Program-made: the position numbers and the translations under genes
Source of the DNA: Limnothrix sp. FACHB-406
GTDB taxonomy: Bacteria; Cyanobacteriota; Cyanobacteriia; CACIAM-69d
Assembly (NCBI RefSeq): GCF_014698235.1
Contig: NZ_JACJSP010000005.1
Coordinates: forward strand, 124,001 to 188,000
Direction: 5' to 3'
Length of the DNA stretch: 64,000 nucleotides
The notes under the pieces: generated by a model
Seen by the model: the letters and a program-made list of their open reading frames with translations, nothing else
Told to the model about the DNA's origin: nothing
Database searches by the model: none
Part shown: positions 8,805 to 23,472 of the stretch, piece after piece
Position numbering within the stretch: position 1 is the stretch's first letter
How the letters are laid out: each line of letters begins with the position of its first letter

Positions 8805-11333
8805 CTAGGATTTACATTTGGCTCCTAGGTTGAGGGGAATTTGAATCAAAAACTCAGTTCCTTCACCCACCTGCGAAAAGCATTCCAGTCTGCCCTGGTG
8901 TTTTTCCACAACAATTTGGTAACTGATGGACATGCCCATCCCGGTTCCTTTCCCGATCGGCTTGGTGGTGAAAAAGGGGTCAAAAATGCGCCTTTGGATG
9001 TCTAGGGGAATGCCGGGGCCATTATCAGCAATGCCTACCACTAGCCATTTAGATCGGGTGCTGGATTTGCCATCACTCAGCGAAGATCCGGTGGAATTGG
9101 TAGAGGGCAGTTCTATTTCTTGAATTCGAGTCCGAATCCGAATCCACTGACGATGGACTTGCAAGTCTTGATAATCGCGGTTAGCGGTGGCTTCTTCAAG
9201 GGCATCAATGGCATTGCTCAGAATGTTCATGATCACTTGATTGAATTGGCCGGGATAGCACTCGATCGGGGGCAGGTTGCCATATTCGCGAAGGATATCG
9301 ATCGCGGGGCGATTGGCCTTGGCTTTTAAACGGTGCTTAAGGATTGTGATTGTGCTGTCAATGCCTTCGTGCAAATCTACGGCCTTTAATTCCGCCTCAT
9401 CCAACCGTGAAAAATTGCGCAGTGATAACACAATCTCTCGAATGCGATCGCTCCCTACCTTCATGGAAGCCAAAATTTTCGTCAAATCTTCCTCTAAAAA
9501 ATCCAGTTCGATCGCCTCTTGTTCCTCCTGAATTTCTGCGACTGGCTCGGGATAGTACTTCGCGTATAACTGCAATAGTCTCAACAAATCCTGAGCGTAG
9601 GTACGTACATGCTCCAGGTTGCCGTAGATAAAGTTCACCGGGTTATTAATTTCATGGGCAATCCCCGCCACTAATTGACCCAAACTGGACATTTTTTCGG
9701 ACTGCACCAGTTGCAATTGGGTTCTTTGTAATTCACTCAGAGTGCGTTCCAGTCGATCGCGGGCTTCTGTCATGGCGGCCATTTGGGACAGGCTCGTCCA
9801 ACAGGCGATCGCCACCCCCAAAAACGCCACCGTAATTAACACAATGCTGAACACGGCTCCGTGGCTGCCGAAGGAAAATCGATCCAACCCAGCCCGCGCG
9901 AACCAACCAATGCTGACCGCGCCACAAAGCAGCAGAATCAGCACCGTGACCTGAAACACCACCCAATCGCGTTGGATGTTGATGGGCCTTGGGCGGTAGC
10001 GGTGACTCCACCAGGCCGGCTGGCAGAGGGCGATCGGGCAATTTCCCACCCCCTGGGCCGCCACGCCGACCGCCATGGGCAACAGCAAGCCAATCAGCCA
10101 ATCTTGCCAGCCCCAAGCCAAGCCACCCACCACAAACACGATCGCCTCCATGACCAAAAACAGCAGCGACCATCGGGGCCAGAGCACTTCCGGGCGTTTC
10201 CGTTGCAGCCACAGCCCCAAATGGATGCCCATCATGGCGCTGAGGTAACCCGTCCCGGTAACCATCACCACCCGCGACACATTGCCCCAAGCCAAACAGA
10301 GCAAACTCACCCCCAAGGTGAACAACAGGCCCGGCTCCAAAACTCCGCGCGGCGAAACCACCGAAAACAGGGCCGGGAGATGGCGGTCTTGGGCTAACTG
10401 GTAAAGCACCCGGGGGCAGTTGGAAACGGCCGTGGCGGAACTGAGCAGGCAACCGGAAGCAATCAAAAACGTCACCAGCCCGGGCGTGAGGCTGCCCCAA
10501 AACGGCCCCGCCGCCGCCATTAGGTGCAAATAGGCGCTGTCACCTAGCCGGGGAGAAATAGCCAACCGCGCCAACAACCACGACCCCAGGACATAAACAA
10601 TGGGTAGCGCGATCGCAGCGGCCACCAAGCAATCCAGAGTGCGGCGCGGTTTGCGACTGTCAGCCACAAAAGAGGAAGCCGTTTCACAGCCATAGACCGC
10701 ATAAATGGCCACAAAAAACCACTTGGCCCAATCCGTGAAATCCAAGTTGAAAGGAATCGGTGCAAACAGCCCTGGACTTTGAGGCGAAAAGCTCAACCAA
10801 CTAAAGCCTTGAAGGCAAAAAACTAATAAGCAGCTAATAGCAGGAATGACAAAAAAGGCATGTAAAATTCCGACGGTTCGGGAGTTGCTGAAGGTGACAA
10901 TATAAGGCAGCAGGGTGAATAAAATGCGAAAAGCGGTGACTGGACAATCCACCCCCAGCGGTTCCAAGCTGACCTGAATTAGGTCAGTCAAAATGATGGC
11001 ATTCATGGGCGGAACCGAGACCCAACCCAACCAATAGCCGATCGCGCTGTAGCGGGCTAAAAATGGGAACTTATGGAGTAACTGAGTGGCATAGTTTGGC
11101 GTTCCGCCCGATCGATCTTGGTCATGGATCCCAAGCTGTCTGACCTGCAAATTCAGCAAAGTGCCAATCACGGCTCCCGGAATCCAAACCCACAGGGAGC
11201 CAAGACCCAAAGCCGCATTCATTGCCGGTGCGGTTCCCAGCCAAAGCAACAAACCGCTGAAACCAAAACTCCAAGTTTCAATGGAACCCAAAGTGCGGGG
11301 CAATTTAAATGCAAACCGGGAGGACTGAGACAT
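8805..11333 (-). CDS. APC-type amino acid permease fused to a histidine kinase
   Basis: This 842-residue fusion has an unusual sensor. Residues ~10-425 look like an amino-acid/polyamine permease of the APC superfamily: about 12 hydrophobic helices, GFSGLLLWLGTAPAMNAALG as the first, and YGCETASSFVADSRKPRRTL resembling the conserved helix-6 region. Two more helices follow (~455-478 and ~492-514), then a coiled linker (519-547). The kinase has its phospho-acceptor His560 in GIAHEINNPVN, an N-box (MNILSNAIDALEEA), G1 (ADNGPGIP) and G2 (GKGTGMGMS). The frame is continuous from ATG 11333, so this is a true fusion. It probably senses or transports an amino acid and signals to an unlinked response regulator (inference). 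The core closely resembles the kinase at 46.4 kb. Confidence 0.9.
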   Translation of the reverse strand: MSQSSRFAFKLPRTLGSIETWSFGFSGLLLWLGTAPAMNAALGLGSLWVWIPGAVIGTLLNLQVRQLGIHDQDRSGGTPNYATQLLHKFPFLARYSAIGYWLGWVSVPPMNAIILTDLIQVSLEPLGVDCPVTAFRILFTLLPYIVTFSNSRTVGILHAFFVIPAISCLLVFCLQGFSWLSFSPQSPGLFAPIPFNLDFTDWAKWFFVAIYAVYGCETASSFVADSRKPRRTLDCLVAAAIALPIVYVLGSWLLARLAISPRLGDSAYLHLMAAAGPFWGSLTPGLVTFLIASGCLLSSATAVSNCPRVLYQLAQDRHLPALFSVVSPRGVLEPGLLFTLGVSLLCLAWGNVSRVVMVTGTGYLSAMMGIHLGLWLQRKRPEVLWPRWSLLFLVMEAIVFVVGGLAWGWQDWLIGLLLPMAVGVAAQGVGNCPIALCQPAWWSHRYRPRPINIQRDWVVFQVTVLILLLCGAVSIGWFARAGLDRFSFGSHGAVFSIVLITVAFLGVAIACWTSLSQMAAMTEARDRLERTLSELQRTQLQLVQSEKMSSLGQLVAGIAHEINNPVNFIYGNLEHVRTYAQDLLRLLQLYAKYYPEPVAEIQEEQEAIELDFLEEDLTKILASMKVGSDRIREIVLSLRNFSRLDEAELKAVDLHEGIDSTITILKHRLKAKANRPAIDILREYGNLPPIECYPGQFNQVIMNILSNAIDALEEATANRDYQDLQVHRQWIRIRTRIQEIELPSTNSTGSSLSDGKSSTRSKWLVVGIADNGPGIPLDIQRRIFDPFFTTKPIGKGTGMGMSISYQIVVEKHQGRLECFSQVGEGTEFLIQIPLNLGAKCKS

Positions 11334-17146: not shown

Positions 17147-17504
17147 ACGTTACCCTTGAAATCGATTTTGAAATCAGTTAATGAATCCATCATCTCGCAT
17201 AAACATGAAAAGCGTTAATTTCATGATGATCCCAGCCCCTGAATCGATAGCCATCCCGTAGCGATTTCGATCGTTTTCCAGAGCGCCGGACGGCCGTGAT
17301 ATGGTTTGGGCAACTTTTTCGATGGGTTCGATCGCTTGGCTTGGGTTCTGACCTCGAGCAAGATGCTCTCAAAATGTGCTCAACATCCGGGGCGACGGAA
17401 TTCGGGGCGGCAAAATTGAAGACAATTCAAGACGATCGAGCAGGGCCACAACAACCAGCCCAACCCAAGCACAGTAGACAAACGCATTGCACGAAGGGGT
17501 TTTG
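17147..17504. other. Intergenic region between divergent comF and caspase-like genes
   Basis: There is no credible gene in these ~360 bp. The sequence next to comF is AT-rich, and the part near the caspase-like gene contains a ribosome-binding site (GAAGGGG, just before ATG 17505). I see no clear promoter motif. Confidence 0.4.
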
Positions 17505-19832
17505 ATGGTGACGAGTTCCAGTGCAACCCAGGGCAAAACCCACTGGGCGATCGCGATCGGGATTGGTCAATATCCTCTGTTGCCGCCGCTGCCCGAAGCG
17601 GAGACCCGTGTGGTCACCGTGGCCCAGGCTTGGCAGAGCCAAACGAGCGGCTCGGCGGGAACCCAATATCGAACCGTGATCTTGAGCGATCGCTCCTTGC
17701 CCCTGCTCGATCGCCCCACCTATCCCAATCGCGAAAATCTGGAATATTGGCTGGATTTTGCCGCCACGGAATTGGTGAACCCCGGTGATACCCTTTGGTG
17801 TTTTTTCAGTGGCTATGGGGTGAGCCATCGCGATCGGGATTATTTGCTACCCATCGAAGCCAGCCTTGATCGGACGGCAACGGCGGGGATTCCCCTGCGG
17901 CGAGTTTGTGAATATTTGAAATTGGCCAGCGATCGGGTTGGCCCGGGTGGGCAAGTGCTGCTGGTTTTGGACTTGAGCCGGCCACCCACCGAAAACCTGG
18001 CTCCGGTGGGCGGTGAAATTCCCCTCTTGGCCCAAGAAATGGGGTTGTCGATTTTGTTGGCAGAGCCGGGGGCGGGTCGCCAAAGCAGCGGCCTGTTGGC
18101 TCCGGCCTTGGCGGCGGCCCTGGGCCAATCCCAGGGAATGAATCTCTATGCCCTCTCGCGGTTTTTGCGGGAAACGACCCGCGCCTTAGCCCAGGAGCAG
18201 GGCCAGGTTGCGCCCCAGGTGCAGGTGTTTGCCCATCCCCATGAGCGGCTCTATGAAACGGTGGTGGGGCGGATGGTGCCAGAGCCGCCGCTCCCGATCG
18301 AGTCCTTTGTGGTGTTTCCGGCTAGTGCGCCGGCCTTGGCTGTGGAACCCCCGATCGCCCCCTTGGGAAATGGGTTGCCCAGTGATCCACCGCTTGATCC
18401 CCAGCCCGATTACCCAGCCAATCAACCCAACTCACAGCCCAATTCGCAACCCAATTCACAACCTAATTCACAACCCGACCAACCGCCAGAACTGGGCGTG
18501 TTTGGGTCAGATCAGGTGCAAAGTCCGGCTTTGGATGATGAGGCGCTCGATCGATTCGCGTCCGCCGCCAATTTGCCCGATGCTTGGGCCACGGAACCCA
18601 GTGCCTTTGAGGCGCTGTTTGCCAATGATTGGGTTCCAACGGAAGAGGCACAACCGGGACTGGCCACGCCGAATCCCTTCACATCGGCTCTGCCCAACGG
18701 CGATCGCCCGGCGGAGTCGGCCAACTTGCGGCCCCCAAGTGCGATCGCGCCCGTGCTCCCGATCGAGACAACGCATTCCAACAGTTCCCCGCCGCCCAAC
18801 GCCCTGCCGCCAGAACCGATTCCCGAGTCCCAGCGAGATTTGGCCCTGGTGGGCCCGCTCACGGCTGGTCTCAGCGCCAGTGATTTGGCCTTTGCGCGCC
18901 AGTTGGTGACTTGGTTGGGAATTTTGGGAATTGTGCTGTTGGCGGCCGTGGTGGCCCGCAACTATGCAGCCCTGTTTGGAGCCAGCATCACGGCCCCAAC
19001 GCCCAGCCCGGCCGCCCCTTTTGGAGCGAATATACCCCCCGCTACCCCGCTGCCCGCGCCGGCCAATGGGGCATCGCCCCCCACCGGCTCCCGGACGTTG
19101 CCGCCGCCGGAACCTAGCCCTCTGGCGAGTCCCCAGCCCACTCCCGTTGTTCAGTCGGGGTTGCCTAGCCCAAAACCCAGCCCCCCAGTCAGTCCTAGCC
19201 CCAGTTCCGCGCCGCCGGCCGCCAGCCCCGCCAGGGTGAACCAATTGAACTTGGCACGGATCCCGATCGGGACGAATCAGGCTTCGGAATTTGGCAAAGC
19301 AATTTTGCGGGCCCGAGAAATCAAACCGGGAGATCCGGGCTACGGTCAAGCCCAGCAGGCGATCGACCGCTGGAGCCGGGTAATTTTGGATTTGGCCAAG
19401 GGGCGGGCCCTCAATGGCGACTTTGGCGGGGCGATCGCGGCGGCCAAAATTGTTGCGCCCGATCGGGGTGAGGTGTACCAAGAGGCGCGTAGCTCGATCG
19501 CCCAATGGCAAACCCTCCAGCAGCAACAGGCCAACAACCGCGCAATTTTGCAAAAAGCCGCCGGCCAAATTCAGCTTAATCAAGCCTCCAGCTATAACCG
19601 GGCGATCGACCTGGCCCGCAGCGTGCCCGTGAACCAACCGGGATATCCCGCCGCCCGCGACCAAATCAATCTTTGGAGCCAAGAAATTCTCAAAATTGCC
19701 CAAGGTCGCGCCAATGCCAACCAACTGGCCGCTGCCATCCAAACGGCCAGCCTAGTGCCGCCCAACACGGCGGCCTATGCCAGCGCCCAACAGGCGATCG
19801 CCCAATGGAAAAAACGCGCTCCCGCCCGCTAA
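17505..19832 (+). CDS. Caspase-family protein with Tyr-Ser in place of the His-Cys dyad (pseudo-orthocaspase)
   Basis: The product has 775 residues. Residues ~12-260 form a caspase-like p20 domain: HWAIAIGIGQYP, then FFSGYGVSHRDRDYLLP, where Tyr104 replaces the catalytic His of the usual SGHG, and LLVLDLSRP, where Ser158 occupies the Cys position. It is therefore probably not a cysteine protease. Such Tyr-Ser orthocaspase variants are known in cyanobacteria. A long Pro/Ser/Asn linker follows, including a 4-residue repeat NSQP, then one transmembrane helix (~466-490), a Pro-rich spacer and two ~95-residue repeats sharing PGYxxAxxxIxxWSxxIL. ATG 17505 is preferred to TTG 17487 because GAAGGGG precedes it. 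The likely topology is a cytoplasmic pseudo-enzyme with an extracytoplasmic repeat domain (inference). Confidence 0.85.
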   Translation: MVTSSSATQGKTHWAIAIGIGQYPLLPPLPEAETRVVTVAQAWQSQTSGSAGTQYRTVILSDRSLPLLDRPTYPNRENLEYWLDFAATELVNPGDTLWCFFSGYGVSHRDRDYLLPIEASLDRTATAGIPLRRVCEYLKLASDRVGPGGQVLLVLDLSRPPTENLAPVGGEIPLLAQEMGLSILLAEPGAGRQSSGLLAPALAAALGQSQGMNLYALSRFLRETTRALAQEQGQVAPQVQVFAHPHERLYETVVGRMVPEPPLPIESFVVFPASAPALAVEPPIAPLGNGLPSDPPLDPQPDYPANQPNSQPNSQPNSQPNSQPDQPPELGVFGSDQVQSPALDDEALDRFASAANLPDAWATEPSAFEALFANDWVPTEEAQPGLATPNPFTSALPNGDRPAESANLRPPSAIAPVLPIETTHSNSSPPPNALPPEPIPESQRDLALVGPLTAGLSASDLAFARQLVTWLGILGIVLLAAVVARNYAALFGASITAPTPSPAAPFGANIPPATPLPAPANGASPPTGSRTLPPPEPSPLASPQPTPVVQSGLPSPKPSPPVSPSPSSAPPAASPARVNQLNLARIPIGTNQASEFGKAILRAREIKPGDPGYGQAQQAIDRWSRVILDLAKGRALNGDFGGAIAAAKIVAPDRGEVYQEARSSIAQWQTLQQQQANNRAILQKAAGQIQLNQASSYNRAIDLARSVPVNQPGYPAARDQINLWSQEILKIAQGRANANQLAAAIQTASLVPPNTAAYASAQQAIAQWKKRAPAR

Positions 19833-22293: not shown

Positions 22294-23472
22294 ATGAACG
22301 CAGAGGGATTCGTACAACTGAGTTGGGCGATCGGCTCGATCGTCCTGGCCGAAATCGTGCGCGATTTTTATCATGTGGCCGGCCACTATTGGGAGCCGCT
22401 CCAACGGGCCCACAACATGCACCACAAGGTCTATCGCCGTGACCTAACCATCAGCAGCCTTGATGCCTATTACAAAGCTCAATTGGCCAACGATGCGCCC
22501 GAAGCGGCCACCATGGCTTCGGTGGTGGGACTGACGGCGGCGGTGTCGGGTCAGTGGGGAATGTGGCTGGGTTGCATCTATTCCCTGGGTTTTTTGGCCA
22601 CGGCGATCGCCCGATCGCGCGGCTACCTGATGGAAACCGACCTAACCCACAAGGCGGGCGACCTGGATAGCAACCCCTCCGTCTGGACGGTGAATCGCAC
22701 CTACCATTGGCGACACCATTTTGATTCGGGCAATGCCTATTACTGTGGGTCTTTGACGTTTGTGGATAAGCTGCTGGGCACAGCCCTGTCCCTGAAGGGC
22801 AAAACAATCGCCATTACCGGGGCATCGGGCAGCATGGGTCGGGCCCTGATTGCCGTGTTGCAAAGCCGAGGGGCGAGGTTGGTGGCCCTGACAACGCGCG
22901 AAGGAACCACCTTTGAGGGCAATGTGCGGGTGGTCACTTGGCGATCGGGCGAAGAGGCGGCCCTGCGCGAAACCCTGGCCAATGTGGATATTTTGATCAT
23001 CAACCATGGGGTGAATCAGGGCGATCGCTCGGCGGCGGCCGTGGCCCAAGCACTGGAGGTGAACACCCTGTCCGCTTGGCGGTTGATGGAACTATTTTTT
23101 GAGACGGTCACCAAGTCGGAACACCGGGCCCTGAAGGAAGTTTGGGTCAACACCTCCGAAGCGGAAGTGAACCCGGCGTTTAGCCCCCTATATGAGCTAT
23201 CGAAACGGGCGATCGGGGATTTGATCACCCTGCGGCGCTTGGATGCGCCCTGTGTGGTGCGGAAGCTGATTCTTGGCCCGTTCAAGAGCGATCTCAATCC
23301 GATCGGGATTATGTCGGCGGGGTGGGTTGCACGGGCGATCGTGGCCTTGGCGGAACGGGATGTGCGCAACATCATCGTGACGATCAATCCCTTGACCTAT
23401 CTGCTCTTTCCAATCAAAGAGTTGGCAAAATCGCTCTACTTCCGTGCCTTCGCCAAGCCCGATCGCGCCTAG
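22294..23472 (+). CDS. Sterol desaturase-like / short-chain dehydrogenase fusion
   Basis: The 392-residue product has two parts. Residues 1-~165 resemble a membrane fatty-acid-hydroxylase/sterol-desaturase fold: HVAGHYW, HNMHHK and WRHHFDSGNAYY supply His clusters that could bind a di-iron centre, among hydrophobic helices. Residues ~168-390 form a short-chain dehydrogenase with the nucleotide-binding motif GASGSMGRALIAV; the catalytic Tyr-x3-Lys appears as YELSKRA. This architecture is known from cyanobacteria, where it is annotated as bifunctional; the substrate (sterol, lipid or carotenoid) is not established from sequence. ATG 22294 starts directly before the first helix. Confidence 0.8.
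   Translation: MNAEGFVQLSWAIGSIVLAEIVRDFYHVAGHYWEPLQRAHNMHHKVYRRDLTISSLDAYYKAQLANDAPEAATMASVVGLTAAVSGQWGMWLGCIYSLGFLATAIARSRGYLMETDLTHKAGDLDSNPSVWTVNRTYHWRHHFDSGNAYYCGSLTFVDKLLGTALSLKGKTIAITGASGSMGRALIAVLQSRGARLVALTTREGTTFEGNVRVVTWRSGEEAALRETLANVDILIINHGVNQGDRSAAAVAQALEVNTLSAWRLMELFFETVTKSEHRALKEVWVNTSEAEVNPAFSPLYELSKRAIGDLITLRRLDAPCVVRKLILGPFKSDLNPIGIMSAGWVARAIVALAERDVRNIIVTINPLTYLLFPIKELAKSLYFRAFAKPDRA

Follow-up and report, generated by a model that had tools for sequence, protein, structure and literature searches.

The gene at positions 17505 to 19832 of the window, the whole stretch of 64,000 nucleotides from Limnothrix sp. FACHB-406, encodes a caspase-fold protein in which both catalytic residues are replaced. 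Judged from alignments and phylogeny, the protein is a member of a clade with a specific membrane helix and repeats, which originated next to His-Cys orthocaspases. The function we favor, at somewhat better than an even chance, is that of a membrane-anchored, non-catalytic pseudo-orthocaspase serving in signalling or as a scaffold, with the pseudo-caspase domain in the cytoplasm and the repeats outside. The gene and its parts are as follows.

17505..19832, + strand: pseudo-orthocaspase gene, ATG at 17505 and stop ending at 19832; 775 residues plus stop
17538..18272, + strand: caspase-fold (p20) domain, residues ~12-256, from an alignment of 92 p20 domains, an AlphaFold model and metacaspase/caspase matches
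17607..17609, + strand: Arg35 codon, in the alignment column of TbMCA2 Asp95 (second S1-pocket Asp)
17814..17816, + strand: Tyr104 codon (motif SGYG), at the place of the catalytic His by alignment
17976..17978, + strand: Ser158 codon (motif LDLS), at the place of the catalytic Cys by alignment
18273..18899, + strand: linker 1, Pro/Asn/Gln-rich, residues 257-465, weakly conserved
18900..18956, + strand: transmembrane helix, residues 466-484, by hydropathy
18957..19244, + strand: linker 2, Pro/Ser-rich, residues 485-580
19245..19511, + strand: helical repeat 1, residues 581-669, by family profile and structure model
19548..19811, + strand: helical repeat 2, residues 682-769, by family profile and structure model

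An in-frame TTG at 17487 is a possible alternative start. The N-terminus, read by eye, is MVTSSSATQGKTHWAIA; its first residues, MVTSSSATQGK, hold no visible signal ahead of the p20 domain, and by eye a twin-Arg extension is absent. The nearest named relative is from Limnothrix sp. CACIAM 69d (91% identity). When searched alone, the protein had no match in Pfam even at E 10, none among the sequences of solved structures and none in PHROGs, and its best NCBIfam match was a caspase model at E 0.056. A match to a PADLOC caspase model (E 0.0023, 15.2 bits) was taken as similarity of fold and not as a sign of a defence system. Homology to caspases was concluded from relatives and from the predicted fold, not from a Pfam match of the protein itself: clade member L010 matched Peptidase_C14 (PF00656) at E 1.3e-20, and a profile of 7 sequences found Trypanosoma brucei metacaspase 2 at 1.2e-7. 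An AlphaFold model of the domain made from three sequences was of middling confidence (mean pLDDT 65.2, pTM 0.72), with pLDDT below 50 around the former active site (residues 106-126 and 160-167). Searched against the PDB, this model matched metacaspases and caspases (best Foldseek E 9.8e-7), and its best VIA match was metacaspase 4 (Z 16.9, rmsd 3.9 A, 214 residues). The domain is thus predicted to adopt the Peptidase C14/orthocaspase p20 fold. The similarity is not due to chance, because p20 matches were present in 83 of 145 relative genomes (E<=0.001) and other clade members have p20, helix and repeat in this same order.

The alignment of 92 p20 domains placed Tyr104 in the column of the caspase His and Ser158 in that of the caspase Cys, so that an earlier reading made from the letters alone (the sequence-only reading) was correct in calling both catalytic residues replaced. 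No intact pair sits elsewhere in the domain, since relatives hold their His and Cys in these same two columns: all 6 sister rows have the dyad, and of the 18 rows outside both pseudo-enzyme clades and their sisters, 17 have the His and all 18 the Cys. Within the 50-row clade that includes our protein, the His site is Tyr in 47 rows and His in 3, and the Cys site is Asn in 40, Ser in 7, Lys in 2, His in 1 and Cys in none. In three rows (L044, L051 and L054) His persists while the Cys column holds Asn or Ser, which would fit either an earlier loss of Cys or a return of His. All 3 genus sequences share Ser158.

The S1 pocket is altered as well. The aspartate of the CCND motif in metacaspase 2, Asp95 in the TbMCA2 numbering given in PMC6426788, aligned with residue 35 in a profile alignment; 47 of the 50 clade rows have Asp in this column, whereas our protein has Arg and L034 and L035 have Asn. 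Asp156, two residues before the Cys site, is invariant in the 50 clade rows, and its position with respect to the Cys leads us to take it for the equivalent of TbMCA2 Asp211. By alignment, then, the acidic pair of the S1 pocket has lost one member in this genus. Active orthocaspases, which cleave after basic residues, are recognized by a His-Cys dyad and two acidic S1-pocket residues, and our protein has neither the dyad nor the full acidic pair; protease activity is presumed absent. The p20 domain and the repeats are under purifying selection: dN/dS against L034 and L035 was 0.10 and 0.17 for the p20 domain and 0.08 and 0.17 for the repeats. The two linkers gave 0.20 to 0.34, with synonymous change to L035 near saturation there.

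Phylogeny was inferred with both dyad columns blanked; the root was not inferred, and the His-Cys rows served to give the direction of change. The clade's 50 rows comprised our protein, its best p20 matches obtained as loci, L034 and L035, and 20 further p20 matches, with weaker matches lying outside the counts, and all were picked by p20 similarity and not by their C-termini. Before alignment, L003 (a CHAT protein) and L004 to L006 (copies of our protein, L034 and L035) were left out. The tree contained two separate pseudo-enzyme clades, each adjoining its own His-Cys proteins. The clade of TAT-signal proteins with Tyr-Ser or Tyr-Gly dyads had 18 rows (support 100/96, or 100/99 together with its His-Cys relatives). 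The clade of our protein had 50 rows, 38 of them Tyr-Asn (100/98, and again 100/98 with its six His-Cys sisters). The bootstrap was not fully settled, with a correlation of 0.985, and the long rows of the tree (L002, L067, L097, L064 and L081) all fell outside this clade. Our protein lay within a six-row set (100/100) together with two Tyr-Asn rows and also a Tyr-His neighbor. An AU test rejected a single clade of all 14 Tyr-Ser rows (p-AU 2.25e-51). Trp98, shortly before the Tyr, was present in 50 of 50 clade rows compared to 0 of 18 TAT rows. The same genome encodes a separate TAT-signal protein (L001), whose dyad is Tyr-Gly; this one does fall in the canonical clade and has a twin-Arg start, RRDFLGRSG.

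Because the two clades stand beside different His-Cys rows, the change from His to Tyr most likely arose at least twice, in two caspase lineages. By the tree and the AU test, Ser158 is convergent with the Ser of the TAT clade, a local change within an Asn clade. The sequence-only reading had assigned the protein to the known cyanobacterial Tyr-Ser class, and here it did not hold: the dyad is indeed Tyr-Ser, but the protein is not a member of the TAT Tyr-Ser/Gly clade and groups phylogenetically with proteins that are usually Tyr-Asn. On the tree we file it as a Ser-bearing member of the Tyr-Asn-type clade and not as a Tyr-Asn protein. The 50-row clade was equated with the published YN clade by dyad and Trp, not by published accessions, so the identity of the two is a probable one.

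Membrane helix and repeats followed the same division. The helix at residues 466-484 has a mean Kyte-Doolittle hydropathy of 2.33, and its family motif is F-W-R-x-L-x-W-G-G ... G-V-x-x-R-N. Using a profile seeded by the two copies in our protein, the repeat was detected in 50 of 50 clade rows and in none of the 6 His-Cys sisters or 18 TAT-clade rows, in whose full-length frames the best chance match was E 0.033 over 19 residues. At a threshold of mean hydropathy >=1.7, a helix preceded the repeats in 48 of 50 clade rows, the other two (L051 and L032) scoring 1.68 and 1.67. No sister or TAT row had a helix >=1.7 after residue 250, the highest being L091 and L082 at 1.67. The two sisters that were scanned against Pfam carry an FGE-sulfatase domain (L065) and a GUN4 domain (L068). 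As far as these comparisons go, a helix and one or two repeats, predicted to be TPR-like, stand in this clade where the sisters have FGE-sulfatase or GUN4 domains.

The two repeats of our protein match the family profile at E 1.2e-32 and 2.6e-32 and are 40% identical to each other. The order of a membrane helix followed by paired repeats was thus as first described, although the repeats are 89 and 88 residues long with a spacing of 101, not about 95 residues. The sequence-only reading could not name the repeat, and residues 587-775 matched no Pfam family; it can, however, be placed as a putatively TPR-like repeat found in a set of cyanobacterial membrane proteins, kinases included. No fitting family was found in NCBIfam, and a TPR_19 match in ortholog L035 (E 0.047, 14.5 bits) was below the cut-off of 25. 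A structure model of the two repeats was all-helical (pLDDT 88). In the PDB it resembled, weakly (E 0.012 or worse), designed helical repeats as well as BamD, YfgM and TPR proteins, and its best VIA Z, 10.7, is of a size often seen among helical repeats. When the repeat profile was searched against solved structures, the best match (E 0.02) was a designed helical repeat protein, and no natural family was found. An all-helical fold is predicted, and it may be TPR-like.

The repeat is not confined to pseudo-caspases. A profile search (E<=1e-5) found it in 50 of 59 relative genomes, and 20 second-tier loci were taken from the better-scoring second-tier matches, not at random, with 6 of the 20 scanned against Pfam. 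Neither these 20 loci nor L036 and L039 contained a p20 domain (best E 0.032). Repeats began by residue 217 in 17 of the 20, and in 15 of those 17 a helix lay ahead. In three of the loci the protein opens with a Ser/Thr kinase domain (PF00069; L124 at E 1.6e-30, L128 at 2.6e-36 and L142 at 5.2e-31), and a helix passed the 1.7 threshold ahead of the repeats in L128 and L142. The repeat-bearing kinases and a repeat-only protein are located as follows.

L124, 709-2769: Ser/Thr kinase with the repeat at the C-terminal side
L128, 793-2754: Ser/Thr kinase with the repeat at the C-terminal side
L142, 699-2726: Ser/Thr kinase with the repeat at the C-terminal side
L039, 148-2025, - strand (own genome, contig 4): repeat-only membrane protein of 626 residues, a helix and many repeat copies, no caspase domain

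A homolog of the repeat-only protein was observed at L036 5638-7710. Because the repeat is found in kinases and in repeat-only proteins, we regard it as a module that can pass between proteins and be joined to domains of signalling. Genome G023, which has no p20 match (E<=0.001), encodes a helix and a repeat pair without p20 at L123:6862-8118, a protein that may have lost its pseudo-caspase half naturally. Since G023 keeps this helix-plus-repeat protein, the two halves may also work apart.

The gene context points to no pathway, because the neighbors are not conserved outside the genus: a comparison of 15 window genes against 22 loci showed conservation within the genus and not in the 20 distant loci. 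Only one of these genes (8805-11333, - strand), a transporter-like sensor kinase made of an amino-acid permease fused to a histidine kinase (AA_permease E 4.9e-9, HisKA 8e-7, HATPase_c 5.7e-19), had matches beyond the genus, in 7 of the 20 distant loci, which we judged to reflect a promiscuous kinase family and not synteny. Another gene of the window (22294-23472, + strand) joins a fatty-acid-hydroxylase-like half to an NAD-binding half of the epimerase/short-chain dehydrogenase kind.

Limnothrix is filamentous. No nifH match over the cut-off was found in its genome or in G001-G005. Of 38 Tyr-Asn genomes, 2 were outside the nifH search, and among the 36 Tyr-Asn genes in the genomes searched, 26 were without a match over the cut-off, 8 had one and 2 had a partial one. 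PMC6426788 describes Tyr-Asn proteins as limited to multicellular nitrogen fixers; this restriction is removed in our sample.

The lost dyad, the helix and the paired repeats best support a role in signalling or as a scaffold rather than as a protease, as the sequence-only reading had suggested. A binding module is preferred to an enzyme because Cys is lost in 50 of 50 clade rows while fold, helix and repeat are upheld. In the cytoplasm, the pseudo-caspase would serve signalling by binding peptides or proteins. On the other side, in the periplasm or in the lumen of the thylakoid, the helical repeats with the Pro-rich linker would bind a partner or sense the state of the envelope, and a signal would cross the helix, probably by clustering, by analogy with repeat-bearing transmembrane Ser/Thr kinases. 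The kinase relatives suggest that the pseudo-caspase is inside and the repeats are outside, because the N-terminal part of those kinases should be cytoplasmic. The sequence does not settle the orientation, because Lys and Arg counts beside the helix are even (means 1.8 and 1.9 on the two sides) and the positive-inside rule is therefore uninformative. This charge balance is compatible with the opposite orientation, in which the pseudo-p20 would lie outside the cytoplasm and the repeats would form a cytoplasmic TPR-like scaffold, and TPR-like domains are common in the cytoplasm. We consider that arrangement unlikely, as some 465 residues, with no N-terminal signal visible, would need to pass through the membrane before the helix, which comes late, and kinases of the same domain order need a cytoplasmic N-terminal part. 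In addition, a 2012 survey predicted the caspase side to be inside for cyanobacterial caspase-helix proteins (PMC3501461). A decoy or allosteric regulator that pairs with or shields the active p20 of a His-Cys orthocaspase at the membrane, in the manner of cFLIP-L and caspase-8, is fairly unlikely. The genome does encode one His-Cys orthocaspase (L002) besides our protein, and with the S1-pocket Asp156 kept, basic peptides might still be bound, although the second S1 Asp is lost in this genus. However, the same-genus genome G002 keeps an ortholog of our gene, and the p20 proteins that were found in it are all pseudo-enzymes. The His-Cys protein of our genome had no match in G002, and a Pfam caspase search at E<=10 gave a TAT Tyr-Gly protein and an unrelated tRNA-synthetase-like match, a result that depends on the threshold, as the stricter search was empty and the laxer one found the TAT protein. 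An active His-Cys partner seems, from G002, not to be needed.

For Tyr-Ser pseudo-orthocaspases, a housekeeping role under the control of light, in photosynthesis or in thylakoids, has been proposed in print (PMC6426788). The argument was built on the Tyr-Ser proteins with a TAT signal, another clade than that of our protein, and no gene neighbors are conserved outside the genus; we hold this role to be quite unlikely here. Ser and Tyr are chemically usable residues, and the fixation of Ser158 in the genus could be read as that of a nucleophile in a hydrolase with an altered active site. The loss of one S1 Asp in the genus speaks against this, and the site does not behave as a catalytic one, because it varies among Asn, Ser, Lys and His in the clade, with Asn and His even within the same family, while the architecture is unchanged. 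A Ser158 hydrolase is accordingly very improbable. That the gene is simply decaying without function, as the loss of catalytic and pocket residues might imply, is hardly credible: the open frame is conserved, the dN/dS values given above already contradict it, and the clade is spread over many families. The membrane-anchored signalling or scaffold protein remains our preferred reading.

Pseudo-orthocaspases and caspase-helix proteins have already been published. The sections of PMC6426788 (Klemencic et al. 2019) on these proteins define the Tyr-Ser and Tyr-Asn clades and note a Trp before the Tyr in Tyr-Asn proteins, which are described there as without an identifiable C-terminal domain; PMC8283722 counts helices in 37 of 133 pseudo-orthocaspases and gives 123 of 133 as without another domain. 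In the open literature on cyanobacterial caspase homologs, a scope that leaves subscription papers and supplements outside, we found no description of the repeat, of its coupling to one clade or of the link to kinases. Surveys have used the pair of letters at the dyad to sort these pseudo-enzymes, and they describe nearly all of them as without further domains. The letters mislead, as Tyr-Ser occurs in two clades, and architecture tracks ancestry, separating helix-repeat membrane proteins from those that are not. Two proteins now discussed as one class are thereby separated, and one of them becomes tied to a kinase-associated membrane repeat; this gives testable predictions, namely the topology and repeat partners shared with kinases. 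Tentatively, and with doubts that outweigh our confidence, we propose phylum-wide receptor pseudo-caspases, in which a non-catalytic caspase fold would replace the kinase domain of a modular cyanobacterial receptor system. The extracytoplasmic part of that system would be one repeat family common to pseudo-caspases, Ser/Thr kinases and repeat-only membrane proteins, and by way of this repeat the three may recognize or assemble with one another at the envelope.

Among known systems, our protein is most like the YN pseudo-orthocaspases as characterized in the passages of PMC6426788 on that clade. Both have a Tyr at the His site with a Trp a few positions ahead of it, a caspase fold and no C-terminal domain that Pfam recognizes. 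It differs in having Ser instead of Asn and Arg for the second S1 Asp, in a host without nifH over the cut-off, and in the helix and repeat that are recognized here. It shares the Tyr at the His site with the canonical TAT Tyr-Ser/Tyr-Gly proteins, of which 10 of 18 rows also have Ser at the Cys site. In contrast to our protein, those proteins form a separate clade with their own His-Cys relatives and have a TAT-like N-terminus, no Trp at that place and no helix-repeat module. SyOC of Synechocystis, a Tyr-Gly protein whose knockout is more tolerant of H2O2 (PMC7889975), lies outside our alignment and by its published dyad probably belongs to the canonical TAT clade. Because that dyad would place SyOC with the other clade, its phenotype should not be carried over to our protein without a test. 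The nearest His-Cys relatives are the orthocaspases L065 and L068 and the further sister rows L069, L070, L077 and L078, which share the Trp and the Asp before a DYLMP-like stretch but have an intact dyad and, in place of helix and repeats, FGE-sulfatase (L065) or GUN4 (L068). The pseudo-metacaspase TbMC4 of Trypanosoma, by its description in PMC6426788, likewise has Tyr-Ser for His-Cys; it is a eukaryotic metacaspase and an independent loss. The kinases L124, L128 and L142 have the same order of signalling domain, linker, membrane helix and repeat, with a kinase domain where our protein has the pseudo-caspase. PknB/PASTA kinases offer an analogy for this kinase-helix-repeat build.
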